DNA from: Pyropia yezoensis | Taxonomy: Eukaryota; Rhodophyta; Bangiophyceae; Bangiales; Bangiaceae | Direction of reading: 5' to 3' | Assembly (NCBI GenBank): GCA_009829735.1 | Contig: CM020618.1 | Span: 20,941,346-21,005,345 of the forward strand | DNA: 64,000 bases | Shown here: positions 7,291-37,195 of the stretch, in pieces | Numbering within the stretch: the stretch's first letter is position 1 | Layout: each line of letters begins with the position of its first letter | Notes under the pieces: generated by a model | Databases searched by the model: none | What the model was told of the DNA's origin: nothing | Seen by the model: only the letters and a program-made list of their open reading frames with translations | Position numbers and translations under genes: made by a program

Positions 7291-7970
7291 ATGGCGTTTG
7301 TGTCGAGCTTTGCCGGCGTGTCGGTGACGTCCGCGGCCGCTGCCCAGACGGGCGGCGTGGCGCGGATGACCGCCACTCCCCCCCCCCCCACCCGGCTGCC
7401 TCTACCCCCGCACTGTCGCGGCGGTCGCTCCTGTCGGGCGCCGCGGCCGCGGCGGCGGTGGCGGCCCTGTCGTTCTCTGCCCCCGCTCCCGCGCGGGCTG
7501 AGTCGGGCGGCATTGCCGGCGTGCTGTCGCGGACGTTCTTCCCCAAGTCGGGCTTTAACGCGCCCGAGGCGATCAAGCCGGCGGATATTGCCAAGGACGT
7601 TGAGGCGCTGAACTCCGCGTCGGTCAAGGGGGCCATCCAAAAGCTCGCCTCGTACCGCGACGCGGCCACCGCCCTCCGCAAGGACTTTAAGGCCGACCCG
7701 CAGCTCGCGGTGGGCGCCAAGGCGCGCGCACTGTTTACGATTTCCGACCTGCGCAACGTCCTCAACGAGGTGGACAGCATCTTTGACGAGGACAGCCAGA
7801 AGGAGACGGACCGCGTGGTCCGCCGCATCATCCAGGACGTGGAGGAGCTGGAGACGTCGGCCGCCGTGCGGCCGGGGACGCCGCGGTCACCTAAGAAGGT
7901 GGACCGCGTGGAGAGGTGGTTTGAGAAGCTCGACTCGGACTTTGAGCGGCTGCTGTCGTTTGTGCAGTAA
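7291..7970 (+). CDS. PSBQ: PsbQ-like photosystem II extrinsic lumen protein (frame break in a C12 run)
   Basis: Predicted extrinsic subunit on the lumen side of photosystem II, of the cyanobacterial/red-algal PsbQ type, which stabilises the oxygen-evolving complex. The ATG at 7291 opens a plastid transit peptide (MAFVSSFAG, with the early Phe typical of red-algal transit peptides). Next comes a twin-arginine thylakoid signal: SRRSLLSG, an Ala-rich hydrophobic core and an APARA-type cleavage site. The mature part of about 155 residues is helical (NVLNEVDSIFDED, VERWFEKLDSDFERLL), as expected of the PsbQ four-helix bundle. The start and the mature domain lie in different frames; the switch falls in the 12-C run at 7378-7389, which behaves as one base short. 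The reading is a plausible sequencing or assembly indel rather than a broken gene, since both signals and the domain are intact. An unannotated short intron is less likely. Confidence 0.88.
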
Positions 7971-8453
7971 GGGGGGGGTCGACGACGACGGATACTGGCG
8001 GCGCACGTTAGGATTAGTCGGTGGAGGCGGCGGCGGGGTGGGGGGCGCCTCGCGCCTGGGACGAGCGTCTGATGGGGCGCGGACATTTTACGACTTGTAC
8101 GGTGGGGTGGTTGGGGCCGGGGGGGCTGCGGATGCGGCGGACCGTGTGGCCGCGGGAACAGGCGAGCGCGTGCGTGTACTCGCACGACTGCTTTTCAAAC
8201 GGTGCCATGCTTCTCTTTCACCCACTATGCCGTCATGTCCCACGACGCGCTGCCGACATGTCCCATGAGGGCCGTTTGCAACTTGTGGCGGACGCCTCCC
8301 AACAGCACACGGACTAATAGCGAGAAGTGTCTGCTCCATCGCCCAACAGACCTCCAGACTATGCCGGGACCGACACCATTTGCGCTGAAGGCATCATGCG
8401 GCGCCCGGCCCACCGCCCCGCGCCGCGCATCGCCGCGCCGCACTCGGCAGCCA
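7971..8453. other. Convergent 3' intergenic region
   Basis: This holds the presumed 3' untranslated regions of the PsbQ-like gene (+) and the MED7-like gene (-), which converge here. No coding signal or structured RNA was recognised. Confidence 0.6.
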
Positions 8454-10015
8454 TCACCCCCCCCCGCGCGTGATCCGTGCCACTTCCGCGGCCATCAGCA
8501 GCCGCACCTCTCGCTCCTCCGTCGTCTCCCCCGCCAGCAACCCCCCAGACGCCGGCGAGCCACCCGCGGCCGACGGGCTCACGGTCAGCGCCTTGCGCTT
8601 GCGCCCCACAGGGGGCGCCACCGCGCCGCCCGCCGCCGCCTTGGCCACCGCCGCAGTCTTGGCCGCCGCCGCCGCCTTGGCCGCTGCCGCCTCGGCAAGC
8701 AGGCCACGCAGCTCGGGGAGCACCTCGTGGCGCGCCGCCGCGGCCGCCGCCACCCCACGCCCGCCCTGGACTACTGCCGACCCGGCAGCGACGGTGGCGG
8801 CCTCGAGCTCCGCCGCCGCCGCGTTGCGCGCGGCGGCCTGTCGCCGAAGCAGGGAGGCCACGGCCAGCCGCGATGCCGCCGCTCGTACCGCGTTGAGGGC
8901 GCCGTGAAGATCGGCAAGGGTGGACTCGATGGCCGCCGTGGAGGGGATGCCCGCCGCGGGGTCCCCGCCGGGCGGCGGCGCGGGGGGGGGGTGGAGGGTG
9001 GACGAGAGGAAGTCTGTATAGGCAGTGAGGAGGGCAGCGTTGAGCTCGCGAGCAGTAGCGGTTGGGGGGGGGGGGGCGCCGCTGGCGGGGCTACCGCCGG
9101 CCGGAGGAGGCGCCCCTGGTAGGACAGCAGCAGGGACGGTGGGCTCTCCCGGAGCAGTGGCGGGGGGAACGGGGGGGGCAGGGGGGGGATATGGCGGCGC
9201 GTTTGCCTGTGCGGGGATACAATACCACAGGGAAGGTAGAGACGCAATACGGGCAGTGAAGAGGAGCCACAAAAAAGGAAGAGCGCACAAGCGAGTATGA
9301 GCGGGGGAAAGCTGTGGGTGAGGACCGAGCGGCGGCGCGTAGCCCAGGGCCACACAAACGATAACAAAAGAGCGTCTCGCGTCGCAGACGCAGCGGGCAG
9401 AACAGGGAAGGCTCGCACGGCGCAGCGTAGACACCCCTTGGTGAGGGCGACTCAAGGCCAAGACCCGAAACGCCGACGGTGGCGGCGGGCAACACGTACC
9501 ACCTGCGGCACCCCAAAGAGGGTGTAGGTCACGCCCGGAGCAGGCGGCGCTGGCGGCGTTGGTAGCGGCACCGCGTCTGACGTAAGGTGGGCGTAGTACC
9601 TGCCGAGGGGGACGGTGGGGCAAAGAAGACAGAGGGGGATGGGGGGGGGGGAGGGAGGAGAGAAGACGTTACGGCAAACCCAACAGGACAGAGCAGTGAA
9701 GGTACCAGCGGTCAGCAGGCCGCATGTTGCTCCCTTCCCCGCTCTGCCTGGACCGTCAATGCCGCGGGCACGCGCGCCACGGCGCATCCCGCGACGCCAG
9801 TGGGAGGCACGTCGGACGCCAGTGCAGGGCATGTCGCAAAGGGCAGAGCGCAGAGTGCCCAACGTCCCCACCCTCCCCCCAAAGAACAAAAGTCTACTTG
9901 AAACGCGCGGGGCAACGCCCCCCCCCCCCCCCCCCCCCCTCCGCGCCGCAACCTACTTGGACGGCGGCGGCGGGAAGGCGCCCACCACGTTGGCGGTGCC
10001 AGGCACCTCTGCCAT
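8454..10015 (-). CDS. MED7: Mediator subunit 7-like protein (MED7), three exons
   Basis: Predicted 302-residue subunit of the middle module of Mediator, the coactivator that links transcription factors to RNA polymerase II. Exons: 10015-9957, 9599-9503 and 9206-8454. Each junction has GT donor/AG acceptor and keeps phase (AA+G makes Lys; then a phase-0 join at CAG/GCA). The N-terminus shows the MED7 signature, a Pro-rich FPPPPSKYYAHL, and TYTLFGVPQ. After a Pro/Ala-rich linker comes the conserved helical pair (ELNAALLTAYTDFL, then a TLADLHGALNAVRAAASRL helix in place of the usual HHLLNEYRPHQAR) and a long Ala-rich coiled coil. The protein is longer than the usual 220-250 residues because of Ala/Pro expansions. 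The RPHQAR core is degenerate, so the assignment rests on order and spacing plus the N-terminal motifs. Confidence 0.72.
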
Positions 10016-10390
10016 GGTGAGCGCGTCCGCCAGCAGCCAGTGCGCGGCGCTGACCCCTGATGATGAACAAGGTAGCAACCGTCAGGCGCCTGTGGCCACG
10101 GCGGACGCGCCGACGGGTGGGGTCGGAGGCCAACGCAAAGAGGGGGCGGATGCGACGGGCGTGAGACGGCCAAGTCGAAAACCAGAGCATGCCGTCCAAG
10201 CGCGCGCGGTCAAGTGACGCTAAGGTCTGACCTGTCAGTCCAAACTACATCCGTGAGATGAATATAAAGTAGATTTACAATTAATTTTTCTCGTGCGAGT
10301 TTACGCCTTCACTACTTTCATTAACGGGTGCCACTTTGAAACTTCTCTCGTCAATGGACGATTGTTCAGGTATGTACAGTGTATGTAGTT

Positions 10391-10440
10391 TGGCCAGAGC
10401 TATGGTGCGTTGCACAAAAAAGATACATGGAGGTTCTTCT
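10391..10440 (+). repeat. Inverted repeat, left arm
   Basis: The reverse complement of this 50-bp stretch matches 12598-12650 at most positions (shared TGTATCTTTTTT and ACCATAGCTC blocks). Together the arms frame 2.2 kb containing the Ala/Pro-rich locus at 11.5-12.5 kb. Confidence 0.72.
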
Positions 10441-10485
10441 CGGCTCGGGCCCGGGTAGGAGACCGGCCATGACGGGGTTGGCGGC

Positions 10486-10664
10486 GGCCATGCTGACAGA
10501 AGGATCACAGTGCCCCACGAGAACTCATGAGGTCCGTGTGTCTCCCGGCCGGTGTACCTCTCCCAGGGGCACCCCGCGTGGACCGGGTGCCGTCGACCCT
10601 GAAATGGGGCCATCCTTTTCGCACTTCTTTGCCCGGCTCGGGGGTCGGTCCGGGCCCATGTGCA
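10486..10664 (+). repeat. Dispersed repeat, copy A
   Basis: Clearly related, in the same orientation, to 47145-47331. Shared blocks include GCCATGCTGACAG, GGATCACAGTG, AATTCATGAGGT-like, and a C-rich ATGGGGCCATCCTTTTCGCA-like segment ending in GGGCCCATG. Divergence is roughly a quarter of positions, with small indels. No coding capacity is conserved between the copies, so it is an old non-coding element, possibly a solo LTR or MITE fragment. Confidence 0.8.
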
Positions 10665-11483
10665 AACTGAGGCTTGGAAGAGGGGTGCTCGATTTACGGG
10701 AGGAGCCCGGGGAAGGTTGGAGGCCATTGTTTTGAGGACTTTTTTCCGTGTGGGGGTCCCTATTTTTGAGAACGCTGTCCTTGAGGGAAAAGGTCCATGT
10801 CGTGGGCTCGTTTGATTGGTCCACGAAGAAGCCTGGTCTTCATGTGCCCCTTGCCTGTTCAGGTTCAGGCATCTCTGGCACGCCCCCCCCCGACTCATGA
10901 TGAAGGAGCCTCTCCCCCCCCTTCCCCTCCTGGACCCCTCTTCTGGACTGGACGCCTTGGGGAGACAAAAACTGACCCGCCCCACGCCTGCCGCGGCGGT
11001 CCCCGATGCCGGGACTTCGGCGGGGCACCTCCCGTGCGTAGAGGGCGGCCGAGAGGGGACCAGGGCCCAGAGGGATACTTGACCGCACGCGCCAACGTGC
11101 GCGACCAGCGGGGGCGATGGGGACCGCTCCCCGCGCATCTGTGGCATGGGGGTGTTGATGCCTCGTATTAGAGGAGAGGCGGGCAGCACGAAGGTCCTTG
11201 CTGATGTTTTGTCCGTAAAGAAAACTGTGTCTCTCCCGAGACCCCCCGAAAACAGCTCCAGCAACGCCCTGCTCCTGCTTTACCTCACATCCTCTCTTCC
11301 CACCCGCACCAAGCCAAGTGCTCAGCCAAGCCAAACAGCTCCCGCTTGCCCGGGAGAACCTCCGCGTCGGCCGCGCAGCCACCCTGAGCTCGGCCGGGCA
11401 AGCCTGCCCCTCCTACGACAAAAAATCAGCGCCTGCGGCGCCAGTAACACCGCCACCGTCGATGCCGTCGCCCACCCCGTTCC

Positions 11484-12470
11484 ATGTACAACGGTTACTT
11501 TACCTCAGCTGCCGTACCCCCAGGCCGCCTAGAGCTCTCCCCATACCCCCGCTCCCTCCCTCCCTCTATCAACCCAACCGCCATTGAACAGCGCGTGTCG
11601 CTATCGCGGGCACCCTCCCTCGATCAAAAACCATCCCCGCCGCCGCCACCAGGCGCACTCCCCTACCCCACAACAAAAAAGGCCGTCAACCACTGCCCCT
11701 CTCTGCCCCGAAAAATCGTAGCCATCACCGTCGCTGCAGCTGCGGTCACCATGGCCGCCTCGTCGACCACGGCGGCCGCCACCATGGGCACCCAGGCCCG
11801 CGGGGCCGCCGCCGCCCCGGGCACCGGCACACGCAGGGTGGCCACGACCTCCGCCTCGGCCGCCGGGCAGGCCGCCGCAGCAGCCGACGCCACCAGCGTC
11901 GTCGCCGTCCCCGCCGCCGCCGTCATCGCCGCCGCCCCCCCCCCCCCCCCCCCAACACGCCGTCGTCGCTGCTGCCGTCGATGCCGCCGCCGCCACTGAC
12001 GTCGCCGAGCCCTCCCCCGCCCCCCCCCCCGACACGCCGTCGTCGCTGCCGCCGTCCATTCCGCCGAAGCCGCTGACGTCGCCGCCGCCATCCCCGCCCT
12101 CCCCCCCCCAAAACTCTTCGTCGGCGACGCCACTGCCGCCGCCGCCATCGCCGTTGCCACCGCCGCCACCGCCGTCCCCCCCCTCCCCCCCCCGAACTCG
12201 CCGTCGTCGCCGCTGCCGCCGACGTTGCCACCGCCGCCGACGCCACCGCCGACGCCACCGCCGCCGCCGCCGCCGCCACCGCCGCCGCCGCCGCAGCCGC
12301 CGTCGCCGCCGTCGCTGCTGCTGCCGCCGCCGTCGTCGCCATCGTCGTCGTCGTCGTCACCGTCGTCGTCGCTGAGCCCGCCGTCGTCGATGCTGCCCGC
12401 GGCACCGGTCCGACCCCCCGTGTCGTGGCCTACCCCGCCGCGTGTAGCCCCCTCCCGCCGTCTCACTTAA
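11484..12470 (+). other. Ala/Val/Pro-rich low-complexity locus with about 75-bp degenerate repeats; coding status uncertain
   Basis: The best-looking start is the ATG at 11751 in a strong context (CACCATGG). It is followed by an Ala/Thr-rich, transit-like sequence and then repeated Ala/Val blocks (HAVVAAAV, ELAVVAAAD) separated by Pro runs. The blocks stay coherent only if the frame changes at C runs near 11935-11952, 12018-12030 and 12100-12110. The opposite strand is also open, reading as poly-Gly/Asp. It could be an expressed low-complexity protein or merely a GCC/GTC microsatellite field. Confidence 0.3.
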
Positions 12471-12597
12471 TGAGCACGCTGGCAGGGTTTCCCGAAAGGG
12501 ACCCACCACCGCTCATGTGGGGCCCATTACACCGGGCCATACCGTCAAGGCACCTGATTGGCTCCGGCCTGTGGCCCGAAGGTTCTCGGAGGAATGA

Positions 12598-12650
12598 GAA
12601 AAGAACGCTCCGTGTATCTTTTTTCTGCAACGTACCATAGCTCGTGGCCC
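12598..12650 (-). repeat. Inverted repeat, right arm
   Basis: Partner of 10391-10440 in opposite orientation. It carries the shared TGTATCTTTTTT block and an ACCATAGCTC-type block. Confidence 0.72.
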
Positions 12651-15977: not shown

Positions 15978-16022
<45 letters not shown>

Positions 16023-16364: not shown

Positions 16365-16396
<32 letters not shown>

Positions 16397-16845: not shown

Positions 16846-18552
16846 GGGGCGGTGCCGGTGGGGGTGGCGGTGGGAGGGGGGGTGTCGCCCGGGGCGGCGC
16901 CGTCGTGGCCGCCGCCGCCGCCGCGGCGGCCGCCTCCCTCGCCGGCCGCCGGGAGGAGGAGGCGGCCGCCGCCGCCGCCGCCGCGGCGGCGGCGGCGGCG
17001 GCGGCGGGCGGGGGCGCCCCCCCCGGGGCGGCGGCGGCCGCCGCGGCGGCGGCCGCGCGGGCGGCGGCGGCGGCGCACCGGGCGCACGCGGCGGCGCTGT
17101 CGCGGGATGGCAAGATGCGGCGGGCGGAGCGGCACCTCCGCGAGGCGCTGCGGCTGCTGGGCGCGGCGCCGGGCGGCGGCGGGCTGGGGGTGGGGGTGGT
17201 GGTGGGGGGGGGGGGGGGGCGGGGGGGGATGCCGGCGGCGGCGGTGGGGGTGGCGGCGGTGGCGGCCCGGGGGGGCGCGGCAAGGGCGGCGGCGGGTGGG
17301 GGGCGCACGACGCGACCGCCGCGGACGCCGCGGCGGCCGGCGGCGGTGGTGGGGGCGGCGACGGCGGCGGCGGTGGGGGTGGGGGGGGTGGTGCGGCCGC
17401 GGGGGTGGTGGCGGCCAAGGGGGGGGGGCCGCCCCCGCCGGGCGGCGGCGGCGTGCCGGGCCGGTCGGCGGCCATGGCGGTGGCGACGGGGGAGACGCTG
17501 CTGGACCTGGGGGTGGTGCTCGACTGCCAGCGGCGGCTGGCCGAGGCGGCCGCCGCGTACGGCGACGCGATCCGCGCGTTTGAGGGCACGGGTGGTGGGG
17601 GGGGGGAGGGGGGGGGGGGGGGGAGGGGGTGTGGGGGGTGGGGGGGGGGGGACGCCCGTGTCGCGGCTGCGAGGCGCAACCTAGAGGTACGGACGCGGAC
17701 GAGGCGGGACCGTGGGGGGGGGGATGCGGTGGGAGGGTGGCGGCGGGATGCGGTGTGGGGGGAGGGAGGGAGAGGAGCACTGTGGGGAGGGAGAGAGGGG
17801 GGGGGGGGGGGGGAGCAGCGGTGCCACGCCGCCGTCGCCGCCATCGCCGTTATCGTCGGCGCCCGCGGGCGGGGATAGCGGCTGGTGGGGAGGGGGGAGG
17901 GGTGGGGGAAGAGCCGCCGCCGCCGCCGCCGCCGCCGCCACCGCCGCCGCCGTCGGCGGGCGGCGCCGGGTGACCCGCCAGACCAGCGAGCACCCCCCAA
18001 CGCTGCCGCGACAGCCCACTGACCACCGAGCTCCCTGACGTTGCGTGTCTCTCTCCTTTGTTGGGTGCGCCCGCCCGCCGTCCCGTCGCGCTGTGGACTG
18101 CCCTCCCCCCTTCCCCCCCCCCCCTCCCCGTGGGCGGCACCCCCACAGCTCAACCGCCAAAAGCAGACCATCACGGCGCACATCCACGGCGCCGACGCGC
18201 CCGGCCGGTGGCGCCACGTCCGGGACGCGGCGTCGGCGCGCGTCGCGTCGGGCCTCGCGTCGTGCACATCCCTGCCCGTTGCCCGCCGCGGGGCGGCGGC
18301 GGCTGGCGGCGGCGGCGGCGGCGGCGGGGGGGCGGGGGGGGGGGGCACGGCCGCCGCGGCCGCGCCGGCCTCGGCGGCGGCGGCGGTGGCGGTGGTGGCC
18401 GGGGGGGGTCCTCGTCGTCGGCGGCGGCCAAGGCGGCCTCCGCCGCGGCCGGTGGTGGTGGCCGTGGCCGTGGGGGGGGGGGGGGGGGACGTCCGCGGCG
18501 GCCGCGGCGGTGGCGGCGGCGGCGGCGGCAGCGGCAGCGGCGGCCGAGGCAG

Positions 18553-18584: not shown

Positions 18585-18908
18585 GCGGTGGCCGCGGCGA
18601 CGGGCCGGGGGGGTGGTGATGGCGGCGGCGGCGGCGGTGGTGACGGGGGTGGTGGCGGTGGGGGGGGGGGGAGCACCGCTCGGCGGGCCCCGACGGCCTG
18701 TCAGTGCCGGCCGTGGCGGCCGCCGCCGCCGACGCCGCCCCGCGGCCGTGGCGGCGGCTCACCGACGGCCGCCCCGACGCGGGGGGGGGGGGCGACGTGG
18801 CGGTGGCGGCGGCTGACCACGACGGCCGCGACGGCCGCAACGGCCGCGACGGCCGCGACGGCGCCGGCGGGCCGGCCGACGGGCGTGGCCACCGCCGCAG
18901 CAGCAGCA

Positions 18909-18944: not shown

Positions 18945-20673
18945 GAGGGGGGGGGGGGCGCCGCAGCGACAGTGGCGGACGGCGGAGCGACAGTGGCGGG
19001 CGGCGGAGCGACAGTGGCGGGCGGCGGAGCGACAGTGGCGGGCGGCGGAGGGATAGTGGCGGACGGCGGAGCGATAGTGGCGGACGGCGGAGCGATAGTG
19101 GCGGACGGCGGAGCGATAGTGGCGGACGGCGGAGCGATAGTGGCGGGCGGCGGAGCGATAGTGGCGGGTGGCGGCAGGGTGGTGGCGGCGGCGGCCGCCC
19201 CGGCGCGGACGGGAACAACTGCCGCGCGGGTGGGGGCGGCGCGCCCGCCGCTGCCGCCGCTGCCGCTGCCGCTGTCGAGTGGGGCGCTGCCGCGCCGTCG
19301 GCGGCGCCCGCCGACGGCACGGCCGCGGGGGCAGGGCCGGCGGGGGCAGACGGCGGCGCCGTCACCCCCCCCGCCGCGGCCTCCCCGCCACGGCGGTCGG
19401 CGGCGTCCCCCCCGGCCGGGGGGCGGCGGCGGCCGCGGCCGCCGCTGCCGCCGCGAGCGCCGGCAGCGGCAGCAGCCCGGCCGGGGGGGCCCCGCCGGGC
19501 CGCGGGGGCGGCCGCTTTGCGCCCCCGCGGGCGGCCGCGCGGGCAGTGGCCGCCGCCGCCCCCGCCGCCGCGGGGCGGCCGCGCACGCCGCCGCCGCCGC
19601 TGACGGCGGCGCCGTCGGGGGGGGTGGGGTGGCGGCGGGACAGGCGCCCCCGCCGGCGGCGGCGGCGGCACGGACACCCCCCCCCACCCCCCACCCCCCC
19701 CCCCCCCCACCGCCGCCGCCGCCGCCGCCGCCGCCCCCCCCCTCGTCGACGGAGACGGCGGGGGCGCCCCCCCCCTCGCCGCCGCCCCCATCGGGCGCCG
19801 CCCGCTGGTGGCTGCACCCCCACCCGCCGCGGGCGCCGCGGACCACCTCTGCGGGCGGCGGGCCCCGCGGCGGTGGGGGTGGGGGTGGGGGTGGCGGAGG
19901 CGGAGGCGGTGGGGGCGCGGGGGGGGCGCCGGCCGTGGCGGGGGCGGGGGGGGGGGTGGGGGGGGGGGCGGTCCGTGTTCAACCGCCTCTTGACGCGCCG
20001 GTCCACGGGCAGCCGCCACGGCCGGGCGGCGGCGGCGGCGGCGGCGGCGGCGGCAGAGGGGGGTGCGGCGGCTGGCGCAGACGCGGCAGCCGCGGCGGCG
20101 GCGGCCGCCGCCGCGGCGGCGACAGCGGCCGCCGCGGCGGCGGCGGCCGACGGCGGGCCGGCGCCGCCCAGAAAGGGCACGCCCGCCGGCGCGGGCGCCG
20201 CGGCGGTAGCGGCCGCGATTGTGGCGGCGGTCACCAAGGGGGCCGCCGCCACCGCCGCCGGTGGGGCGGCCGCCGCCGCCGAGCACGCCACCGACGCGTC
20301 GTCTGCCGCCGCCGCTGCGGGGCAGACCAAGGACGGGGCGGTCGGCGGCGGTGGCGGCGGCGGTGGCAGCGCCCCGGGCGGCACCACGTCAGTCGCAGCG
20401 GCGGCGGGGACGGCGGCAGTGACGGCGGCGGGGGCGACCGGGGCGGGACCACCGGCACGCGCCGCCCCCGCCCCGGGCCCCCTCCCGCGGCCAACGGCGG
20501 CGGCAACGACCAACATCCCGCCCACGGGGCGGCCCCACCGCGCATCGTCGCGTGGCCGCCGGCCGACGCTGTTTGCACGCCTGTTTGGCTCCCGGGGGGT
20601 CACCGCCACGGCCGCCGCCGCCGCCGCCGCTGCGGCGGCGGCGGCGCCTCCGCGCCCGGTACCCGTGCCGTCA

Positions 20674-20852: not shown

Positions 20853-23324
20853 GGTGGCGGTGTGGCGGCGTGTCGGCAGCGTGGGCGGCGGCGCCATGCG
20901 CCGCCGGCTGCTCACATCGTCAGCGTCGGCCTGCTCGGCGGTGCTCCGCCGGTCGAGTGGCGGGGGCGCCGGCGAGGCCACCGGCGCCGCCGGCGACCCC
21001 GCCACGCCGGCCTCCCCCCACAAGGGCGGTGGCGACGGCAGCGACGTCGCAGGGGGGGGGGGGCGGGGAAGCGCCGCCCAACGGCCAAGGCGCGGCCGTC
21101 GGCGGCGGGGCGGGGCGTGCCGCGGCGGCACTACTCGGAGCTGCTCGCGCCGCCCCCTCTGGCGGTGGACGAGGAAGGGGTGCCGCCGCCGCCGGGGGGG
21201 GGGGCGGCCGGGGGGGCGGCGGCGGCGCTCCCGCCGCTGCCGCCGCCGCCAGACACGATGCCGCCGCTGCTGCCGCCAGTGGAAGAGGTCAGCCGCGGCG
21301 GTGGGGGCGGCGGCGGCCAGGAAAGCGGCAACGTCAGCGGCCCAGGTGTCGTCGACGACCAGGAAGGCGGCGGCGGCGGGTCCGTCGTGCCGCCCAAGGA
21401 CGCGACGGCGACAGCCGCTGACGTGCGGCACGACGGTGCGCCTCCCCCGCTGCGGCGGCGGCTGTCACGGCGGTCGTCGGGGGCGGCCGCCCCCGACGGC
21501 CGGCGTCGGCGGTCCACCCGCGCAGAGGGCGACGATGGCGGCGGCGGCGGGCGGCCCGCCGGCGGACGAGCGGGCGCTGCCGACGGGGGCGGCGGCGGCC
21601 GCCACCGGCGGTCGACAGAGGGCGCCGCGTCCGCATCCGACGGCGGCGGCGGCGGTCGGCACCGGCGGTCCACCGAGGGTTCTGCCACCGCGGACGGAGC
21701 TGATGGAAGTGGTGGCGGCCGTCACCGGCGGCCAACCGACGCGTCGGTCGACGGCGTCGGCGGCGGTGCCGGCGGCAGCGGCGGTGCCGGCGGTGGTGGA
21801 GGTGGGCGCCACCGGCGGACCACCGACGTATCGTTTGAGGCGCCCGACGGGAGTGGCCGCCACCGCCGGTCCACCGACGTGTCCTCTGACGCGCTCGACG
21901 GGGGCGGCCGCCACCGTCGGTCCACAGACGTGTCGTTTGAGGCGCCCGATGGCCGCCATCGCCGGTCCACCGACGTGTCGTCGGACGCGGCCGATGGGGG
22001 TGGTGGCGGCGGCGGTCGCCACCGGCGGTCCACCGACGTGTCGTCGGACGCCACCGACGCGGGGGGCAGCCGCCACCGGCGGACGACGACCGACGGCGCC
22101 ACCGACGGCGCCGCCGTCGCTGCCACCGCCCCCGACCGCCACCGGCGGCACCCGCAACGGGTGGCCGACGCGCTCGCCACGGCGGGCAGGCGCCGTGGGC
22201 GCACCCCCGACGGGCGGGCGGCCGACGCGGTGGGGCGTGGCGCCCACGGCCGGCGGTCGACGGCCGGGAGTGACGGCGACGGCGGCGGCGGGGGCCGCCA
22301 CCGGCGGTCCACCGACGTGGGCGCCGGCGCGCCCAGTGGCCATCGGCGCGGCGGCCGCGACGTCCCTGCGGCGGGCCGCGGCGGCGACGGCGGCCACCGC
22401 GGTCACGCCGACGGCCGGCGGGGGGGGGCGGGGGACGGCGGCGGCCGCCACAGCCGCCGCTCGCGGTCCGTGTCGGCCGTGCGGATGGCGTCCGACGGTG
22501 ACGCCGGGGAGGACGACCGCCGCCGCCGCCGCCGCTCCGCCGCCTCTGCTGCCGCCGCCGCCTCTGCCGCCGCCGTCGCTGCTGCCGTCACCGCCAACAA
22601 CGGCGACGACGACGACAACAAGGACGACGACGACAAGGGCGGCGACGACCGTGACGCAACGGTCGGCACGTATGGTGGCAGCGTCATTGGGGGCGGCGGC
22701 GGGGGCGGCAGCAGCGACAGCGGCAGCGGCAACGGCAGCGGCGGTGACTGTGGCGACGTCAGCGCCACGGCCGCCGTCACCGCCCTGGCCATGGCTATTC
22801 GTGCCACGGCCGACGCTGCCGCCAGCGACGATGACCAGCAGGGCCGGGCGTCCCCAGCGCCATCACCCCCCCCCCCACGGCGGCACGGGCGACCCGACGG
22901 CCACCGGCGTCGGCGGCCGCCGCCGGCCGACACGGCCGACGGGCCGCGAGCCCCCCCCCCCCCCCAGCCCCCCCTGCCCCCCCCCGCCCCCCCACCGCTG
23001 TTGCTCCTGTCCCCGCCGGCGGGGGACGGTGACCGGTCGGCGGCGGCGACGGCCGCCACGGCCAACGACGACGGCGACGACGGTCACCGGCAGCAGCAGC
23101 AGCCGCACCACCGCCGCCGGGTGCGGCAGCGGCGGCGGCAGCGCAGCGGCGCGTCGGCCATCTCGCCTGTGGCCTCGTCGGTCGACGGGGGCAGGGCGGG
23201 GGCGGCTGCCGACGGCGGCGGCGGTGGGGGTGGGGGCGGCGGCGGTGGTGGCGGAGGGGGCGGCGGTGGGGGTGGTAGCCGTCGCCACCGCCGGTCCGAC
23301 GCGTCAAGTCACCGGCGGTCGTAG
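15894..23324 (+). CDS. Giant low-complexity protein: two TPR motifs plus RRSDSGG and RHRRSTDVS repeat domains
   Basis: Function unknown. The ATG at 15894 opens a Gly/Ala-homopolymer N-terminus. Two good tetratricopeptide motifs follow: one near 17070-17160 (AAALSRDGKMRRAERHLREA) and one near 17490-17580 (LLDLGVVLDCQRRLAEAAAA), matching TPR positions 8, 11, 20, 24 and 27. The frame offset between them falls in a 16-G run at 17204-17219. Exon 1 ends at 17686 (GAG/GTACGG) and exon 2 starts at 18149 after CCCACAG, in phase, continuing the helix. Exon 2 is Gly/Ala-rich with ten RRSDSGG heptads (about 18958-19167), segments such as SVFNRLLTRRSTGS and TLFARLFGSRG, and about 13 RHRRSTDVS-type units (21590-22320). 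An acidic patch and a final HRRS stop end it at 23324. The coherent frame changes several times, always at C/G runs. If it is one gene, it encodes about 2,300 residues. It could instead be several genes. The Arg-Arg-x-Ser/Thr repeats suggest serial phosphorylation or SR-like binding (inference). Confidence 0.55.
18958..19167 (+). repeat. 21-bp minisatellite encoding RRSDSGG, ten units
   Basis: Unit CGGCGGAGCGACAGTGGCGG plus one base, repeated ten times with few substitutions (GACAGT alternates with GATAGT; one unit has GGGATAGT). It is in frame in the second exon of the giant TPR gene, so each unit adds one seven-residue block with an RRSD motif. Confidence 0.95.
21590..22320 (+). repeat. Degenerate coding repeat RHRRSTDVS
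   Basis: About 13 units around the core CGCCACCGGCGGTCCACCGA (RHRRSTD), spaced about 45-75 bp apart, usually followed by ValSerSer/Phe-Asp/Glu-Ala and AspGly. Spacing varies and third positions differ, so this is an older, selected protein repeat rather than a fresh minisatellite. Confidence 0.88.
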
Positions 23325-24179: not shown

Positions 24180-25664
24180 ATGGCGTTTGTGGCCGCCCCC
24201 GCCGCGGCAGCGGCCGCCCGCTCCACCCGCCGAGGGGGCACGGCGCCGCCGGCGGTCGTCTGCCGGGGTGCGTTTGCAGCGCCGTCCACCCCCCGGCGGG
24301 GGGTGGTGGCCCCCGCCGGCCGGCGGGCGTCCCGCGAGGGCCCCGGCCAGTCGACGCCGCCGCCGCCGCCGCCGCCGCTGCCGCTGCCGCCGGTCGCAGA
24401 CGCTGGCGCCGCCGCCTCGCCTGCCGCTTCCGCCGCTGCCGCTGCGGGCGATGCCCCCGACGCTGCTGCCGCCGCCGCGGCGGCGGCGGCGGTGCCGACG
24501 CCCGCGGCAGCGGCGGCCGCCACGGCGGCAGCGACACCCCAGGCGGCGGGGTCTACCCCCCCCCACTCCTCCTCCCCCCCCCCCAGTGGCGGCGCCGCCG
24601 ATGGGGCGCCGCCCCTGTCTGCCCGCGCCCCCCGGTCGACCATCCGGGTGGCCATCCCGTCCAAGGGGGGCATGTCCACCGCGACGACGCGGCTGCTCGA
24701 GGATGTGGGCATGGCGGTGCAGCTGCTCAACCCGCGGCAGTATGTGGCGTCGCTGCGCAACGCGCCCGGGGTGGAGGTGTGGCTGCAGCGCCCGCCCGAC
24801 ATTGTGCGCAAGGTGCGGGACGGGGATGTGGACCTAGGCTTTGTCGGCTACGACCTGGTTGCCGAGCACGGCGGCACCGACGGGCGGGTAGTGGCGGCGC
24901 ACGAGGACCTCGGCTATGGCGGCTGCCGGCTGTCCATTGGGGTGCCCATGGCGTGGGCGCACGTGTCGTCGGTGGCCGACCTGGCGGCGGTGGTCAACGC
25001 GCCGGGCGCGGCGGCGCTGCGGGTGGCCACCAAGTTCCCCGTCCGCACGCGCTCCTTCTTTACCGCCGCCGGCATGGACAACTACGAGGTGGTCAACATG
25101 GACGGCGCGCTCGAGGCTTCGACACAGATGGGCACCGCCGACGTGATTGTGGACCTGGTCTCCTCGGGCGTGACGCTGCGGGAGAACCTCCTCAAGGAGA
25201 TTGACGGCGGCACGCTCGTGACGAGCGCCTTCCAGCTGGTTGGGAACCGTGCGTCGCTGGCCGCGCCGGGCCCCGCCGGCGACGCCCTCCGTGCGCTCTG
25301 CCGGGAGCTGGTCGAGCGCATTGACGCGCACCTGAGTGGCCAACAGCAGTGCAACGTCATTGCCAACATCCGTGGCTCGTCCATGAACGACGTGGCCCGC
25401 CGGCTGGGCGCCCAGACCGACCTGTGCGGCATGGACGGGCCGACGATCAACTCGGTGGTACCCCCGCGGGGCACCGAGACGGGCATGTACGCGATTGGGC
25501 TGGTGGTGCCCAAGGACAGCGTCTACCGCACGATCCGGCAGCTGCGGTCGGTGGGGGGGAGCGGCGTCTGCGTCCTCCCCGTCACGTACGTGTTTGAACA
25601 AGAGTCCAAGCGGTGGCGCGCGCTGCTGCGGGAGCTGGGCGTGGAGGGGGCGGGGGAGGCGTAG
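24180..25664 (+). CDS. HISG: ATP phosphoribosyltransferase, long form (HisG), plastid-targeted
   Basis: Catalyses the first step of histidine synthesis, ATP plus PRPP to N1-phosphoribosyl-ATP. The single 494-residue frame starts at the ATG at 24180. Residues 1 to about 150 are a transit peptide (MAFVAAP, Arg/Ser/Ala-rich) plus a Pro/Ala low-complexity linker. The catalytic part begins at about residue 153 (RVAIPSKGGM) and carries DLGFVGYDLVAEHG (about 216). The PRPP-binding loop DVIVDLVSSGVTLRENLLKE is at about 320. The C-terminal HisG_C regulatory domain (YAIGLVVPKDSVY, about 437) marks the long, histidine-inhibited form. Length without the extension matches plant HisG. The gene has no intron or frame break, which makes it a useful internal standard for coding quality. 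Identification is secure. Confidence 0.97.
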   Translation: MAFVAAPAAAAAARSTRRGGTAPPAVVCRGAFAAPSTPRRGVVAPAGRRASREGPGQSTPPPPPPPLPLPPVADAGAAASPAASAAAAAGDAPDAAAAAAAAAAVPTPAAAAAATAAATPQAAGSTPPHSSSPPPSGGAADGAPPLSARAPRSTIRVAIPSKGGMSTATTRLLEDVGMAVQLLNPRQYVASLRNAPGVEVWLQRPPDIVRKVRDGDVDLGFVGYDLVAEHGGTDGRVVAAHEDLGYGGCRLSIGVPMAWAHVSSVADLAAVVNAPGAAALRVATKFPVRTRSFFTAAGMDNYEVVNMDGALEASTQMGTADVIVDLVSSGVTLRENLLKEIDGGTLVTSAFQLVGNRASLAAPGPAGDALRALCRELVERIDAHLSGQQQCNVIANIRGSSMNDVARRLGAQTDLCGMDGPTINSVVPPRGTETGMYAIGLVVPKDSVYRTIRQLRSVGGSGVCVLPVTYVFEQESKRWRALLRELGVEGAGEA

Positions 25665-26099: not shown

Positions 26100-27241
26100 A
26101 TGTCCACCAGCCGCGGCGCGGCAGCGTCGGCCCCCCCCCCCCCCCCGCGTCCCGCCCCGCCGTGGTCGACGCCGCTGCCTTTTACGCCACCTACAAGGGC
26201 CACACCGTGGAGCACCTGGCAGCGGTCCACGCCGCCCTCACCACTGGTGCGGGCGCCCCCGACCGGCCGGTCGTGTGGCTCGTTGGGGACAGCACGCTCG
26301 ACAACAAGTACTGGCTACGGGAGGAGGCCGACCGCAAGGCGGCCGCGCTCAATGGCTTCGAGCGCGTCCTGCAGCCGCCAGAGTGTGTGCGGGATGTGGC
26401 CTACCACCTCAACGCCATCCTGGTTGACGCGGCCGCGGCGGCCGCCGGTGGCGATGGCGGTGGCGACGGCGGTGGCGACGGCGGCGGCGGGGGCAGCGGT
26501 GGCGCCACCCGCCCTCTCCCCCCCGTGGTCATCAACGCGGCGGTAGAAGAGTCGACGCTGACGGAACGGTTGACGAAGGGGCTGCTGCCGCAAGACGCGT
26601 ACGTGCGGGACCACCTGCGGCCGGCCGACACGGTCATTGTTAGTGTTGGCGGCAATGACGTGGCGCTGGCACCGTCGATGGCCACCGCCGCCGCCGCCGC
26701 GGCGGGCGTCTACCTCAACCGTCCCGCCACGCTCGACGCGAACCCGACCGCCGCCTGGGGGCTTGGCCCCCTCCTCCGCCTCTTTCGCAACGACACCGCC
26801 GCGTATCTGTCGCAGCTGGTCGTGCCGGGCGCGCGCCCCCCCCCGGGCCGCGTCCTTGTGTGCGGCCTCTACTACCCCGCCACGGCCGCGGCGGTTGCCG
26901 CGGCCGCGGCGGCGTCGGCGGCGGCCGCCGCGGCGGCGGGGGACGCGCCCCCCGCGCCGAGCGGCGCCGGCTGGGCAGACCTTCCCCTGCGGCTGCTGCG
27001 GTACGACGCCAAGCCCAGCGCGATGCAGGCGGTCCTGCGGGCGGTCTTTCGCCTCGGCACGTCTGCCGTAACCGTGGCCGGGGTAGCCGACGTGGTGCAT
27101 GTGCCGCTCTACGAGCGCCTCGATGGCACCCGGGGGAGCGAGTACGTGGACCGCGTCGAGCCAAGCGCCACGGGCGGGCGAGTGCTCGCCGAGATGCTTG
27201 CTGCGGCGCTGCCGGGGGGGGCGCGGGACCCCGCCGCGTGA
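26100..27241 (+). CDS. SGNH/GDSL-type hydrolase-like protein (frame break in a C16 run)
   Basis: Predicted SGNH-superfamily protein (esterase/lipase-like fold); the substrate is unknown. It has the block I motif VGDSTLDNKYW with the nucleophile Ser, and block III with the oxyanion-hole residues (VIVSVGGNDVAL). In between it has a conserved INAAVEESTLTERL segment and LLPQDAYVRDHL. Near the end, YVDRVEPSATGGRVLAEM probably replaces the usual DxxH block. The order matches SGNH proteins known from algae and other protists. The best start is the ATG at 26100 (MSTSRGAAASAP), which lies in another frame from the domain; the shift falls in a 16-C run at 26131-26146 that acts as one base short. The alternative is an in-frame upstream start near 25964, with weaker context. 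Ala- and Gly-rich insertions interrupt the domain. No intron is evident. Confidence 0.75.
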
Positions 27242-28405: not shown

Positions 28406-31106
28406 TCACAGCTCTGCCCGACACACGGGGCAACTGCGGCGGGTAAAGAGCCACCGCTTGACGCAGTCCTCGTGGTAGGCGTGGCCACAGCCGAGCTCCA
28501 CCAGGCTGACCAGCACGTCTGCGCTGGCACCCGCGTCGTCAGAGCGGCCCTCGGCCACCAGGCTGCTGCCGCCCGTATCCCACTCGTCACAGCCGCCACC
28601 GCCGACGCCGCCGCCGGCGCTGCTGCCCCCACAGCCTGTGCCACCGCCTCCACCGCCGACGCTACCGCCAACGCCGCTGCCGCCGCTGCCACTGCCGCCG
28701 CTGCCGCCGCCACCGTCCGACTCGAGCGGGTCCAGACAGATGAGGCACAGGTCGTCGCAGCGACGGGGATCTCCCGGCGCGAGGGAGGACGGTTTTGCAT
28801 AGCCACCAGGGGGGGCGCTCCCGTCCTTGGTGTTGCCACCACAGCCGCCGCCGCCACCACCACCACCCCTGCCAGCGGGGTAGGACGCCGCCCCCCCCAC
28901 CCCCGAGGAGGGCCCAAATGTGGCGCTCTTGTTGCGCTCGCACACAACCACACGGACGGGGAGGCGGCGGAGCTCCGCCTCGGACAGCCCGCGGGTGACG
29001 TTGCGCTCCTCCAGCTCCAGCAGCTGCTCGTAGCTGAGGGCGAGGGGAAAGTCCGCGTCCCCCATCCCCCAGCCCCCGCCGCTGGCATCGTCTGCCCAGT
29101 CGCGCAGGCGGCGACGTCGTCGCCTCCGGCCGCGGCCGCGGCCGCCGCCATCCCCATCCGCACCTCCCATGACGCCGCCGTCGCCGCCGCCGGTACTCCC
29201 GCCGCCGCCCCGTCGCGCTCGCCGCAGCGGCAACAGACGGGCCAGCCACGTGCGGCAGCGGCGGCCGCGGCTCGCCGCATCCTCTTCCCCACTGTCGTCG
29301 CCCGTGCCAAGGACGCCCAAGCCTGCGTCCCAGCTAATGTCACCAAAGCCGCCCACCCAGCCCCCCACAAAGACCCCACCGCCAGCGCCAGCAGCGCCTA
29401 CAGAGTCGCCCGCATCCGCGGCGGCGGCCGCGGCGGCCGCGGCAGCGGCACCTGCGCTGCCGCCCCCACTATAAGCACCGCCCACGCCCCCATGGACAAC
29501 ACCGCCATAGCCGTCACTGCCAGCTGCCGCCGCCGCTGCCGCGGCGGCCTCCACGTCACCCCGCCGAAGCGGTCGCAATAGCGGCCGGTGATGACGTGAC
29601 CGCCCCACTGGCTCATCCGGAGTAGCCACAAAGCTGTTGCCGCCACCATAGACCTCCTCATCCATGGACGGGTAACTCCCACCTGGATCACCCCCATAGA
29701 CGTCGCCAGCCGAGCTAAGGCCATAAACGCCCACCCCAGACGCAGACGAGCTGCTTAAGAACGACGATGGCGGCGAAGCGTGCTCCAGCCGCTCCAAAAA
29801 GCGGCGCGCAACAGAGCGACCACGAGCCACACTCGCACCCCCGCCGCCACCCCCAGTCCCAACGGCGGCACCATAAGGGTGGTGGTGATTGTGTTGGGGG
29901 TGGTGGTGGTGACGAACGTGTTGAGGGTGCCGGTGCCCGTGACTCGCGGACGTCTCGTCCAAATGAACGGCGTACGCATGAAGGGATTGAGGCCGCCGGC
30001 GTAACCGCATCTGGCCAGACACGGCCGACGACAGCCGGCCAGCAGGGCGTCCAGCAATGTCCGCGTCGTGCACGTCTGGGCCCCGCGACATGAGATACGA
30101 GGGGAAGCCCCCGGGGGTGCTGTTGCTGTGAAAGGGGATGTCCCCGTCACCGCCGCCGCCAACGCCACCGTCGCTCCCACTGCCGACGCCGCCGCCAACG
30201 CCGCCAAGGCCGCCCCCCAGTCGCCGCCCATCGTCTGGCCGACCCACCTGCGCCTGGTGCAGGTGTTGATAGTGGTCCGCGTGACCCCCCCATGTCAAGC
30301 CGGACGACCCTCCATGGCCGGCATAGGGCACCGCCGTTGACGGAAAGGCGGGAAGGCCGCCACCGCCCCCGCCCCCCGAGCCACGGCTCATCACGCCGCG
30401 GGCACGGCCCATGAGGCTCGTCCGCCCGTACACCGCAAAGCTGTGGCCGCTGCCACGGCCACCGCCGCCGCCACCCCCCCCCCCCCCCCACCACCGCCAG
30501 TGCTAAAATGGCGAGCAAGACCCTCAGAGAGCGGGGACCCCCGACCACCGTCCCCACCTCCCGCCCGCACGTCGGCGTCCAGCCGCGGCGCCGACGCGGC
30601 GCGGTGACCAAGCGCCACAGGGGCCAGGCCCAGCGCCGCCCGCCGGCGGCCACCCCCCCACCCGCCGCCGCCACCGCGACCACCGCCACCGCCGCCGTTG
30701 CCCCCGCCCGTGTCTGTCGACAGCGGCATGGCCGCCGAGAGCACGTCTGGCGGCGGCAGCGTAGCGGACCGCAGCCGCGCGTGTGGGTACATTGTCGTGG
30801 GGTTGAACGGCTCGTCGGCCGGGGAAGTAGACGCGGCGGCGGGCGCTCGGGTGGTCGCCGTCGGTTCGCCGCCGCCGCCGCCGCCTCCACCACGATGGCT
30901 GCCGCCGCCGCCACCGCCGCCACCACCACCCCCGCCGCTGCTGCTACCCCGAGTGGCGGGCGCCTCGCCCGCCGAGTCCGCACCTGTGCGCCAGAGCAGT
31001 GGAACCGGCGGCAACCCCTCGGACAGGTGGGGAGCCGCCGGCGCGCCCCAGGCAGACCGAGGGCGGGGCAGGCTCCGCCGGCGGCCGCCGCCGCCGCCTC
31101 CACCTC

Positions 31107-31141
<35 letters not shown>

Positions 31142-33830: not shown

Positions 33831-33834
33831 GGCA

Positions 33835-33845
33835 TATATATAAAA
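33835..33845 (+). promoter_or_regulatory. TATA box candidate for POLE2
   Basis: TATATATAAAA followed by G-rich sequence, 534 bp upstream of the POLE2 start codon. It is the cleanest TATA element in the window. It would imply a 5' leader of about 500 nt containing the pyrimidine-rich tract at 34280-34350, or an upstream exon; a short ATG-initiated frame near 33923 lies between. Confidence 0.5.
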
Positions 33846-34378
33846 GGGGGGTGTTGGGCGTGGGGGGGGGGACTTCATCGTGGCGGTCTTGGCAGCGGCA
33901 TTCCGTCCAGTTGGCATAACACCATGGAGTTGTTGACGGGAGGACGGGCGCAGGCACTGTACACCAGCACAACCCCACTCCCTCCCATTTTTTCCCGCCC
34001 TTTTTTCGTTCCCGCCATTCACGGGCGTGGGCCGCCTGCTCACGACCGCCCGTCTGATTCCCCATCCCCACTGTCCCCCCTCCCCGCCGGCGGTGTTGCT
34101 CGGGTCGCCGTCCCTTTCCTGCCTCTCACATCCCTGCCCGCCGCGCCCCGTTCCCCTGCACCTGTCTTCCACCTCCCTCGCTGACCCACCCCGCCTCTCC
34201 TTTCCATTTCCGCACACTCCTCTCGCCTTCCTCCTCACCCCCGTATCCATCCCCCGCCCCGCATCGCCAACGCCCCCCGAGCAGGCCCCCCCCGCTCTCC
34301 CCCCCCCCCCCCCCCCCTCCCCCTCCCCCCCCCCCCCCCCCCTCTCTCTCTCTGTCCCCTGCCCGCCTGCCACCCACC

Positions 34379-37195
34379 ATGTCGGCAGCGTCTGTGCAGG
34401 CCACCCTCCTCTCCCGCCTCAAAGTCCGCGGCAGGCCCGTCCACGCGGCGGCCATGCGCACGCTCGTTGGCGCCTACACGGCCGCCACCGCCGCGGTGTC
34501 TGCGGGGGGCGGCGGGGGAGGGCGCCCGCGTGCTGCCGCTGCCGCCACCGCCGCCGACGCTGCCGCGTACGTGGAGGCGGTCATCCGCGCCCTCCCCCCC
34601 GACCCGTGGGTGGTCGACGCGGCGGTGGCGGCGGAGGTGGTGGCCGCCCTCTCCGCCGCTGCCGCCGCCTCTGCCGCCGCCGCCGCTGCCGGCTCGGCTG
34701 CCGACGCGGGGGGTGGCCGCCACCACGGCCGCGGTTCTGCCGTCGACTCGGAGGGGGGGGAGGAGGAGGAGGAGGAAGAGGGGGAGGAAGATGAAGACGC
34801 AGACGAGGTGGGCGGCGGCAGTGCTGCGGTGCTGCCCCCCCCCCCCCTCCGGGTCATCTCGGCTTTTGACGTGCCGTGCGTGGACGCCGACGGCGGGGGG
34901 GGGGGCTGGTGCGGTGGCCGCCGGCGAGGGGGGAGCCCCCTGCGGCTGGACGCGCCGCCGACGGCCAAGGCCGCCGCCCTCACCGCCCGGTACGAGCGGC
35001 TAAAGGCGCGGACGCTGCGGAACCCCCGGTGGGCGCCGCCTGTCAGTGACGCGGCACGGGCGGCGGCGGCGATGAGCACCGCGGGCGGCACCGCCTACCT
35101 CCAGCTGACGCCCATCGAGTCGCTCACGTCGGCGGCGGTGGAGCCCGACGCAGACGTGGAGGCGGCCACCGCGGATGCGGGGCGGCGGCGGCGGCGGCGG
35201 CCACGGCGGCGGCGGCACCTGGTGCTGGGCATGCTCACGCAGCTCGAGGCGGACGCGTGGTTCCTAGAGGACCCCCACGGGGTGATCCGGCTGGACCTGT
35301 CGGCCGCCGTCACGACGGCGGGCTTTTTTACCGAGCACGCGTTTGTCATTGTGGAGGGCACCCTGCACGCGTCCGACGGTGGTGGCGGGGGTGGTGGCGC
35401 CGGCGGCGGCCGCGGCGGCCGTACGGGCGGCGCCGACGCCATGATGATGGCCGACGGCGGGGAGCCCCCACCCGCCGATACGGTGGCTGACCCCATTGCG
35501 GGCACCCGCGTCCTCCGCGTCCGCTGCATGGGCGCGCCGCCGCCCGAGGAGCGGGCGGCGGCGCAGGCGGCCCTCGGTCCGGGCGTCGACGGCCACGGCG
35601 GCGGGGACGGCGTGGTGGGCATTGGCGGCGGCGGCGGCGGCGCGTCGGCCGCGGCGGTGGCGGCGGCCGCCGCCTCACAGGCCGCCGCCGTGGATACCCT
35701 CTTCCTCTTCCTCGCCGACGTGCCGCTGGATGAGCCGTCCACCATCCCCGCGCTGCGGTCCATGTTCTCCCGCCTCGCCGGCTCCCCGCCGCCGCCGCTG
35801 CTGCTGCTCATGGGCAACTTCCTCTCCCACCGGTACGGCCGCCACCCGGGCGACGCGGCGGCGCTGACGGCGGGCCTCACCGCCCTGGGCACGCTCCTCG
35901 CCACAGAGTTCCCGGCCATGGCCGCCGCCACGCGGGTGGTGCTGGTGCCGGGCGCGGGGGACCCGGGGGTGGCCGCCACCCTCCCCCGCCCGCCGCTGCC
36001 GTCGGCGGTCGCGGCGGGGCTGGTGGCGGCGCTCGCCGGGGGGGCGGGGGTGGAGCTGGCGTCCAACCCGTGTCGCCTCCGGTGGGGCACCCGCACGTTT
36101 ACCATCTTTCGGGAGGACCTCCAGCGGGCGCTCCTGCGGGGCACCGCCACGCCCGTTGCACGGCGGCGGCGACGTCGCGGCGGTGGGGGCGACGACGATG
36201 GTGGCGGCGCCGACGGCGGGGACGAGGAGGACCCCGACGACGAGGGCGATGAGGAGGAAGGGGAGGAGGGGGGGGGGGCGGGCGGCGGGCACCTCGGCGA
36301 GCACGTCATCAAGACGGCGGTAGACCAGGCGCACCTGTGGCCCGGCGCCGCGGCGGCGGGGCGGGGGGTGCTGTGGACGGCCGACACGGGCCTCGGCCTG
36401 CATCCTGCCCCCGACGTGCTGGTGCTGGGCGACGCCGCCGCCCCTGCCTACCGGGGGCACTACATGGGCACCTGGGGCGTCAACGCGGGCTCCTTTGGCG
36501 CCGACCGTTCCTTTGCGGTCGTCCTCCCGGCGGAGGGGGTGGTGCAGGTGAGCCGCCTCACTGAGCCAGGGGCAGACGACGACGACGACGATGGTGGGGA
36601 GGAGGAGGAGGCGGAGGGCGACGATGACACCGACGACTCGGGCGCCGAGCCCCCACCGCCACCGCCGGCCACCACGCTGCGGGCGCGCAAGGTGGTGGCG
36701 ACCGACGACGGGCCTGCCGACGGCAGTGCCGTCGCGGATGCAACAACGTCGGACGACGACGGGTCGATGGCCGCCGCGTCTGACGGCGGGTCGGCTATGG
36801 ACAGCAGTGACGCCGAGTCGGGGGAGTCGGCCTACGCCATGGCCATGCGGCGGGCGGCCAAGCGGCGGCGAGCGGCCGGGGGGGGGGCGTCGTCCGACAC
36901 TGGGGGGGGGCGTCCGACACTGGGGGGGGGGCGTCCGACACTGGGGGGGAGTCGTCCGACACTGGGGGGGAGGCGTACGACACTGGGGGGGAGGCGTACG
37001 ACACTGGGGGGGAGGCGTTCGACACTGGGGGGGAGGCGTTCGACACTGGGGGGGAGGCGTTCGACACTGGGGGGGAGGCGTTCGACACTGGGGGGGAGGC
37101 GTTCGACACTGGGGGGGAGGCGTTCGACACTGGGGGGGAGGCGTCCGACACTACTAGTGTCTAAATTTAGTCTACCGCAAAAAAGGCTCAAATGA
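34379..37195 (+). CDS. POLE2: DNA polymerase epsilon subunit 2 (B subunit)
   Basis: Non-catalytic B subunit of the leading-strand replicase Pol epsilon, needed for its assembly and for CMG helicase loading. The single 938-codon frame starts at the ATG at 34379. Domains: N-terminal helical domain (residues 1 to about 110); acidic linker; RYERLKARTLRNPRW (about 205); OB fold with LVLGMLTQLEADAWFLEDP (about 280); and an inactive calcineurin-like phosphoesterase domain (DTLFLFLADVPLDEP about 438, LPRPPLPSA, NPCRLRWGTRTFTIFREDL about 562, HVIKTAVDQAHLWP about 642, NAGSF about 702). These match POLE2 rather than the Pol alpha or delta B subunits. The family is usually about 530 residues; the extra length is Gly/Ala insertions plus an acidic Asp/Glu/Ser tail ending in a minisatellite. 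In the tail a one-base-short repeat unit switches the reading from SDTGG to RPTLGG, so the annotated C-terminus is doubtful after about residue 840. Confidence 0.93.
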   Translation: MSAASVQATLLSRLKVRGRPVHAAAMRTLVGAYTAATAAVSAGGGGGGRPRAAAAATAADAAAYVEAVIRALPPDPWVVDAAVAAEVVAALSAAAAASAAAAAAGSAADAGGGRHHGRGSAVDSEGGEEEEEEEGEEDEDADEVGGGSAAVLPPPPLRVISAFDVPCVDADGGGGGWCGGRRRGGSPLRLDAPPTAKAAALTARYERLKARTLRNPRWAPPVSDAARAAAAMSTAGGTAYLQLTPIESLTSAAVEPDADVEAATADAGRRRRRRPRRRRHLVLGMLTQLEADAWFLEDPHGVIRLDLSAAVTTAGFFTEHAFVIVEGTLHASDGGGGGGGAGGGRGGRTGGADAMMMADGGEPPPADTVADPIAGTRVLRVRCMGAPPPEERAAAQAALGPGVDGHGGGDGVVGIGGGGGGASAAAVAAAAASQAAAVDTLFLFLADVPLDEPSTIPALRSMFSRLAGSPPPPLLLLMGNFLSHRYGRHPGDAAALTAGLTALGTLLATEFPAMAAATRVVLVPGAGDPGVAATLPRPPLPSAVAAGLVAALAGGAGVELASNPCRLRWGTRTFTIFREDLQRALLRGTATPVARRRRRRGGGGDDDGGGADGGDEEDPDDEGDEEEGEEGGGAGGGHLGEHVIKTAVDQAHLWPGAAAAGRGVLWTADTGLGLHPAPDVLVLGDAAAPAYRGHYMGTWGVNAGSFGADRSFAVVLPAEGVVQVSRLTEPGADDDDDDGGEEEEAEGDDDTDDSGAEPPPPPPATTLRARKVVATDDGPADGSAVADATTSDDDGSMAAASDGGSAMDSSDAESGESAYAMAMRRAAKRRRAAGGGASSDTGGGRPTLGGGRPTLGGSRPTLGGRRTTLGGRRTTLGGRRSTLGGRRSTLGGRRSTLGGRRSTLGGRRSTLGGRRSTLGGRRPTLLVSKFSLPQKRLK
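36891..37152 (+). repeat. 21-bp minisatellite at the 3' end of POLE2, 12 units plus a partial
   Basis: Unit CGTTCGACACTGGGGGGGAG plus one base. All units are 21 bp except the first (36891-36910), which is 20 bp with nine G, whereas the second has ten. Upstream of this unit the protein frame reads SDTGG; downstream it reads TLGGRRS. With a 21-bp first unit the frame would stay SDTGGEA and stop at EASDTTSV. Confidence 0.95.

Follow-up and report, generated by a model that had tools for sequence, protein, structure and literature searches.

Frame changes at long C and G runs in the Pyropia yezoensis genome assembly, a probable case of homopolymer under-calling

In the genome assembly of the red alga Pyropia yezoensis (GCA_009829735.1), a 64,000-nucleotide stretch of contig CM020618.1 (positions 20,941,346 to 21,005,345 of the forward strand; hereafter the window) holds five genes in which an initial annotation placed a change of reading frame at a long run of C or G. 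We found that frame changes cluster at C/G runs, become more frequent as the runs lengthen and mostly correspond to one missing base; they occur outside the window as well. Very probably they result from homopolymer under-calling, the assembly having dropped one base from each of the runs concerned. If that is so, some gene models of this cultivated-seaweed reference would be shifted or truncated at coding C/G runs longer than about 10, misleading both annotation and proteomics; if the cause were biological instead, it would add a new way in which proteins can vary in GC-rich eukaryotes.

Five C/G runs and their genes

The runs themselves were found as annotated: C12 starting at position 7378 of the window, G16 at 17204, C16 at 26131, C16 at 30474 and G9 at 36902. 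They lie among 129 C/G runs of at least 8 in the 64 kb, where runs of at least 10 occur at 11.4 per 10 kb versus 3.9 in 17 sampled 10-kb loci. Reading frames were followed with a three-periodic codon model, trained on open frames of the sampled loci with and without the window and with runs of at least 8 masked; the training loci were also the scored loci. According to the version that omits the window from training (model B), the proposed frame changes are clear in the PsbQ-like and RING-H2 genes, likely at 17204, suggestive in the SGNH-like gene and weak in POLE2. All five have the sign of one missing base, as the initial annotation held, but the chance of five equal signs is 0.06 and the cases were of its own choosing.

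The frame change at the C12 run of the PsbQ-like gene is solid. The gene is made up of the following parts:

7291–7377, plus strand: first frame, with the start codon and the presumed transit-peptide region (ATG at 7291; coding signal from 7288–7317)
7378–7389, plus strand: C12 run, frame change equal to one missing base (codon model, run count)
7390–7970, plus strand: second frame, with a Tat-type signal and the mature region (Pfam PsbQ, 21.4 bits against a cut-off of 26.9)

The coding signal runs from the ATG to the C12 in one frame and continues beyond it in another. Read without a shift, the sequence reaches a stop after 106 codons, of which about 73 follow the C12 and do not belong to the conserved frame. 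The nearest second-frame ATG upstream of the run is at 6837. No intron donor of the GTA(A/C/T)G type or GTGAGT was found within 400 nt on either side of the C12. A broken PsbQ duplicate with an intact copy elsewhere was rejected, as PsbQ matches the genome once. No relatives of the protein were found in viral_contigs, and a search of solved structures gave no meaningful match for the mature part and, for a longer piece, a sole match to the signal stretch of another lumenal protein.

The frame change at the run of the RING-H2 gene is likewise solid, with different frames before and after the 16 bases in the codon model and an ambiguous signal in the 30 nt leading up to the run:

30474–30489, minus strand: 16-base run that reads as G on the coding strand, frame change equal to one missing base (codon model and decoding blind to runs)
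28409–30473, minus strand: RING-H2 gene body with a C-terminal RING, downstream of the run, one frame (Pfam zf-RING_2, 37.3 bits)

At 17204, in the gene annotated as "TPR", a frame change at the G16 is likely. The codon model locates it between 17203 and about 17300, within a very GC-rich block:

17204–17228, plus strand: G16 and G8, frame change equal to one missing base, either run being possible (codon model; Pfam TPR_12, 13.5 bits, downstream only)

From 16 to 22 kb (plus strand) the GC content is 83–86%, and the long open frames there are rich in Gly, Ala and Arg, with many G runs.

In the SGNH-like gene the evidence is suggestive of a frame change, with about 30 nt ahead of the C16 favouring the other frame in the codon model:

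26131–26146, plus strand: C16 at the start of the gene, suggestive shift (codon model; ATG at 26100)
26147–27238, plus strand: single-frame SGNH/GDSL-like coding region (sub-threshold Pfam match to Lipase_GDSL_2, 17.1 bits)

The POLE2 case is weak: its G9 belongs to a minisatellite beyond the conserved part of the protein, and the original frame continues open across the G9 as far as 37193. The conserved match stops near 36560, before the minisatellite. As a control, the POLE2 frame is kept across C13 at 34835, G11 at 34895 and G11 at 36268.

34361–36898, plus strand: POLE2 coding region, one frame (Pfam DNA_pol_E_B, 82.7 bits)
36881–37152, plus strand: minisatellite of 13 copies of 21 bp, containing the G9 (36902–36910)

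The description of the frames on either side of each run as well-supported protein halves was overstated. With both sides submitted for the PsbQ-like, 17204, SGNH-like and RING-H2 cases, and the original frame only for POLE2, the Pfam search at E-values up to 0.5 found no domain on both sides of any of the five runs; at best, one side alone had a match. The zf-RING_2 and DNA_pol_E_B matches are strong, and those to PsbQ, Lipase_GDSL_2 and TPR_12 fall below the cut-offs. Support for the upstream halves in the PsbQ-like, 17204, SGNH-like and RING-H2 cases comes from codon statistics.

Run length and sign of the frame changes

Frame changes were counted over 654 run clusters from the window and 47 loci, each cluster being taken once, on its better strand, and classed by its longest run; L001–L008, which overlap one another, were excluded, and the 15.5–23.5 kb block of the window was kept out of training for this count. 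Both 120-nt flanks had to be confidently coding, with thresholds of (8,6) for strict and (5,5) for lax calls. Under the strict thresholds, the numbers of clusters with the frame kept, one base extra and one base missing were 22/0/0 for a longest run of 6–7, 14/0/1 for 8–9, 9/0/5 for 10–12 and 8/0/2 for at least 13. Shifts were thus called in 0/22 clusters of 6–7 and in 7/24 of at least 10, all one base short, giving p = 0.005 for the dependence on length (below 10 versus at least 10) and p = 0.008 for the sign (8 missing to 0 extra). The lax counts in the same classes were 52/0/0, 19/1/2, 11/0/5 and 11/1/2. Scored by the model trained without it, the window alone gave strict counts of 9/0/0, 4/0/1, 5/0/3 and 0/0/1; with lax thresholds, this model also called one shift at a run of 6–7.

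Over 101,433 coding bases, decoding that was blind to the runs changed frame 15 times, in 13 cases with one base missing and in 2 with one extra. Seven of the 15 (6 missing, 1 extra) were no more than 10 nt away from a C/G run of at least 8, a zone that makes up 4.1% of the coding bases (p = 9e-7). At locus L041 this decoding placed a one-base-missing change next to a C9 and a C11.

Besides the five runs described above, the following shifts were called in the window, most of the additional calls falling in the GC-rich block at 16–22 kb:

18326–18345, plus strand: G7 and G12, one-base-missing shift, GC-rich block (flank codon count)
18472–18488, plus strand: G17, one-base-missing change, GC-rich block (run-blind decoding)
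18660–18671, plus strand: G12, one-base-missing shift, GC-rich block (flank codon count and run-blind decoding)
19365–19372, plus strand: C8, one-base-missing shift, GC-rich block (flank codon count)
21052–21063, plus strand: G12, one-base-missing shift, GC-rich block (flank codon count and run-blind decoding)
12185–12193, minus strand: run of 9, one-base-missing change (run-blind decoding)

Kinase loci and introns

An anchor at the level of single bases came from protein kinases. Among 144 Pkinase matches we took 18 of 30 unpaired partial matches together with both frame-differing pairs out of 24, leaving out the 22 same-frame pairs, and placed the pieces with a profile built from ten kinases of the P. 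yezoensis assembly. The locus L030 (C1, ~26.17 Mb) shows a kinase frame change at a C8 run, within a 42-nt gap between profile matches. The piece before the C8 matches PAK3 (6fd3_A) up to residue 217, and the piece after it, in another frame, matches residues 220–275 from its second residue on. The protein requires one residue between the two pieces, for which only 2 nucleotides remain; the C8 thus lacks one base. No GT-AG pair fits this second gap of the locus. At L037, a similar change occurs at C12/C11 between two Pkinase pieces; it is only a probable second homology-anchored case, because a weak GT-AG candidate exists there. Across the G19, G34, G25 and G28 runs of L037 (180–261, 977–1001 and 1040–1067) the codon model kept one frame.

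The kinase loci also bear on the explanation that the two frames are exons, with the run in or beside an intron. Of the 28 gaps, 25 (in 20 loci) were tested, three same-frame gaps being left out, and 24 of the 25 contain an in-frame GT-AG pair; introns are the usual cause of frame changes in the examined kinase set. The best donor was GTA(A/C/T)G or GTGAGT in 21 gaps, 14 of these being GTACGT, and weaker in L036, L037 and L040. Further in favour of introns, a C18 and a C15 lie just ahead of a candidate acceptor in L030 (598–631, reverse strand), as if the C tract served as the polypyrimidine tract. Nevertheless, we consider introns highly unlikely as the cause at the runs: the coding signal reaches the run itself in the PsbQ-like gene and comes to about 30 nt from it in RING-H2, and the shortest best candidate in the kinase set measures 188 nt. 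Moreover, no GTA(A/C/T)G-type or GTGAGT donor occurs within 400 nt upstream of the PsbQ-like, 17204, RING-H2 and POLE2 runs, a search that weaker donors would escape.

Based on the coding signal and the donor search, an intron at the run was rejected for the PsbQ-like and RING-H2 genes and is unlikely for 17204. In the SGNH-like gene a GTATGT stands 288 nt upstream of the C16, and an intron there is possible. P. yezoensis intron donors in general seem to favour GTACGT, the best candidate in 14 of 24 gaps (L026–L045). Outside the kinases, genome-wide tables of MFS_1 and Aminotran_1_2 (9 matches each) contained no split pairs; the Helicase_C table was inspected by eye only.

Origin of the missing base

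The 2020 assembly of P. yezoensis was generated from PacBio RS II reads with HGAP3 and polished with Quiver; in the passages on its construction, Illumina mate pairs serve for scaffolding and no short-read polishing is mentioned (PMC7423979). The reads deposited for the sequenced strain are Illumina SRR10480798, PacBio SRR10489006–SRR10489010 and full-length cDNA SRR10502264–SRR10502266 (PMC7423979). In an RS II assembly of Clostridium autoethanogenum, 207 of 243 differences were in homopolymers longer than 5 bases, every one of them lacking a single monomer, and some were checked by Sanger sequencing (PMC4687164). Our case resembles it in the instrument, the homopolymers, the single missing monomer and the apparent gene frameshifts. 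It differs in that the runs there were mostly of 4–8 bases in a bacterium with 31% GC (PMC4687164), whereas the present ones are long, consist of C or G and belong to a GC-rich alga, seen in the assembly alone. Long-read errors are mostly homopolymer indels according to the background given in PMC12007338, whose test assembly, of a platform not named in the passages drawn on, had mostly false deletions, more of them at A/T than at G/C runs.

We hypothesize that a Quiver-polished RS II consensus would sometimes drop one monomer in long C or G tracts, and that a dropped monomer would displace the frame read after it by one and the same step, whichever strand is coding. From the platform and the published RS II error, we infer that the base is absent from the assembly only and not from the DNA of the cell. 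As biology, the frame changes at runs are probably not a real feature. Under-calling, already offered in the initial annotation as the simplest explanation, is favoured by the origin of the assembly, the published sign of the error, the dependence on run length, the mostly one-short sign and the PAK3-anchored C8 of L030. Conservation on both sides of the run in the five proteins is not supported. For the shared biological cause named as its alternative we found no positive evidence, and shifts occur at runs of both C and G on the coding strand.

Several results weigh against under-calling. The L030 case came from homology, and the codon model made no call there; the only strict shift outside the window, at L037, is the one with the weak splice alternative. 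Under lax thresholds the signs were 9 missing to 2 extra (p = 0.07) and, outside the window, 1 to 1. Four of the 15 run-blind changes lie more than 60 nt from any run of at least 6. Seven of the eight strict shifts are in the window (7/27 clusters versus 1/34 outside; p = 0.017), and five of these seven are at 17.2–21.1 kb, in the GC-rich block, the part in which codon frames can be assigned with least certainty. With the 15.5–23.5 kb block removed, the strict counts were 20/0/0, 12/0/0, 7/0/2 and 8/0/1 (p = 0.04; 3/18 for runs of at least 10). When L037 was removed as well, only PsbQ and RING-H2 were left, both picked by the initial annotation (2/14 for at least 10, 0/30 for shorter; p = 0.10). 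Runs of at least 13 keep the frame in 8 of 10 clusters (p = 0.003 versus random length), 3 of the 8 being in L037. An earlier, less-trained model, for which runs were counted singly and on both strands, also shifted runs of 6–7 (lax, 7 missing and 5 extra of 55). Finally, the supplement of the assembly paper may describe polishing (PMC7423979).

The recount without the GC-rich block slightly lowered our confidence in under-calling, which remains high, and raised a little the weight of chance or gene decay, by which the long open frames would simply be those of GC-rich DNA, some stretches being non-genes or pseudogenes. The weak Pfam matches in three of the five cases, one-sided at best, would agree with this, as would the 83–86% GC block that holds most of the additional calls. 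With the concentration of changes at runs exceeding chance (p = 9e-7) and a conserved kinase affected in L030, however, it is no likelier than the highly unlikely introns.

Slippage of the RNA polymerase, with DNA that is truly one base short and a mixed mRNA population of which part is in frame, is still less likely. Rescue of genes by slippage at homopolymers is known from endosymbionts, Buchnera and Blochmannia, whose genes are likewise out of frame at a homopolymer; there, A/T tracts in reduced bacterial genomes are concerned, whereas the present cases involve C/G tracts of a nuclear genome, are mostly of one sign and are known from DNA sequence alone. That nuclear genes of P. yezoensis with out-of-frame C/G tracts depend on slippage for a share of in-frame mRNA, as a eukaryotic C/G counterpart of the rescue in insect endosymbionts, is just as doubtful. 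In its favour, the only PsbQ match of the genome would be a broken gene without such a rescue. Slippage would, however, tolerate both signs, and the tracts lean towards one base missing, with a few extra-base cases, the strict calls all being one base short; on the coding strand the affected tracts are of C and also of G; the change reaches a C8 within a kinase core, whereas runs of at least 13 are mostly spared; and the history of the assembly predicts the pattern without new biology. Possible as slippage and recoding are, neither is needed.

The least likely explanation, close to negligible, is programmed −1 ribosomal frameshifting, which matches the direction of the shift at all five runs but would have to be relied upon by functionally unrelated genes at runs that vary in base, length and surroundings (no search was made for slip sites or pseudoknots), and would leave the unshifted PsbQ-like product to end after its 106 codons, outside the conserved frame.

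Elsewhere in the window, HisG (126.6 bits) and HisG_C (38.1 bits) match in one frame at 24180–25661 (plus strand), an ATP phosphoribosyltransferase gene. A gap of 500 N lies at 53283–53782, and a stretch of about 110 bases appears by eye to be duplicated in tandem at 6230–6450.

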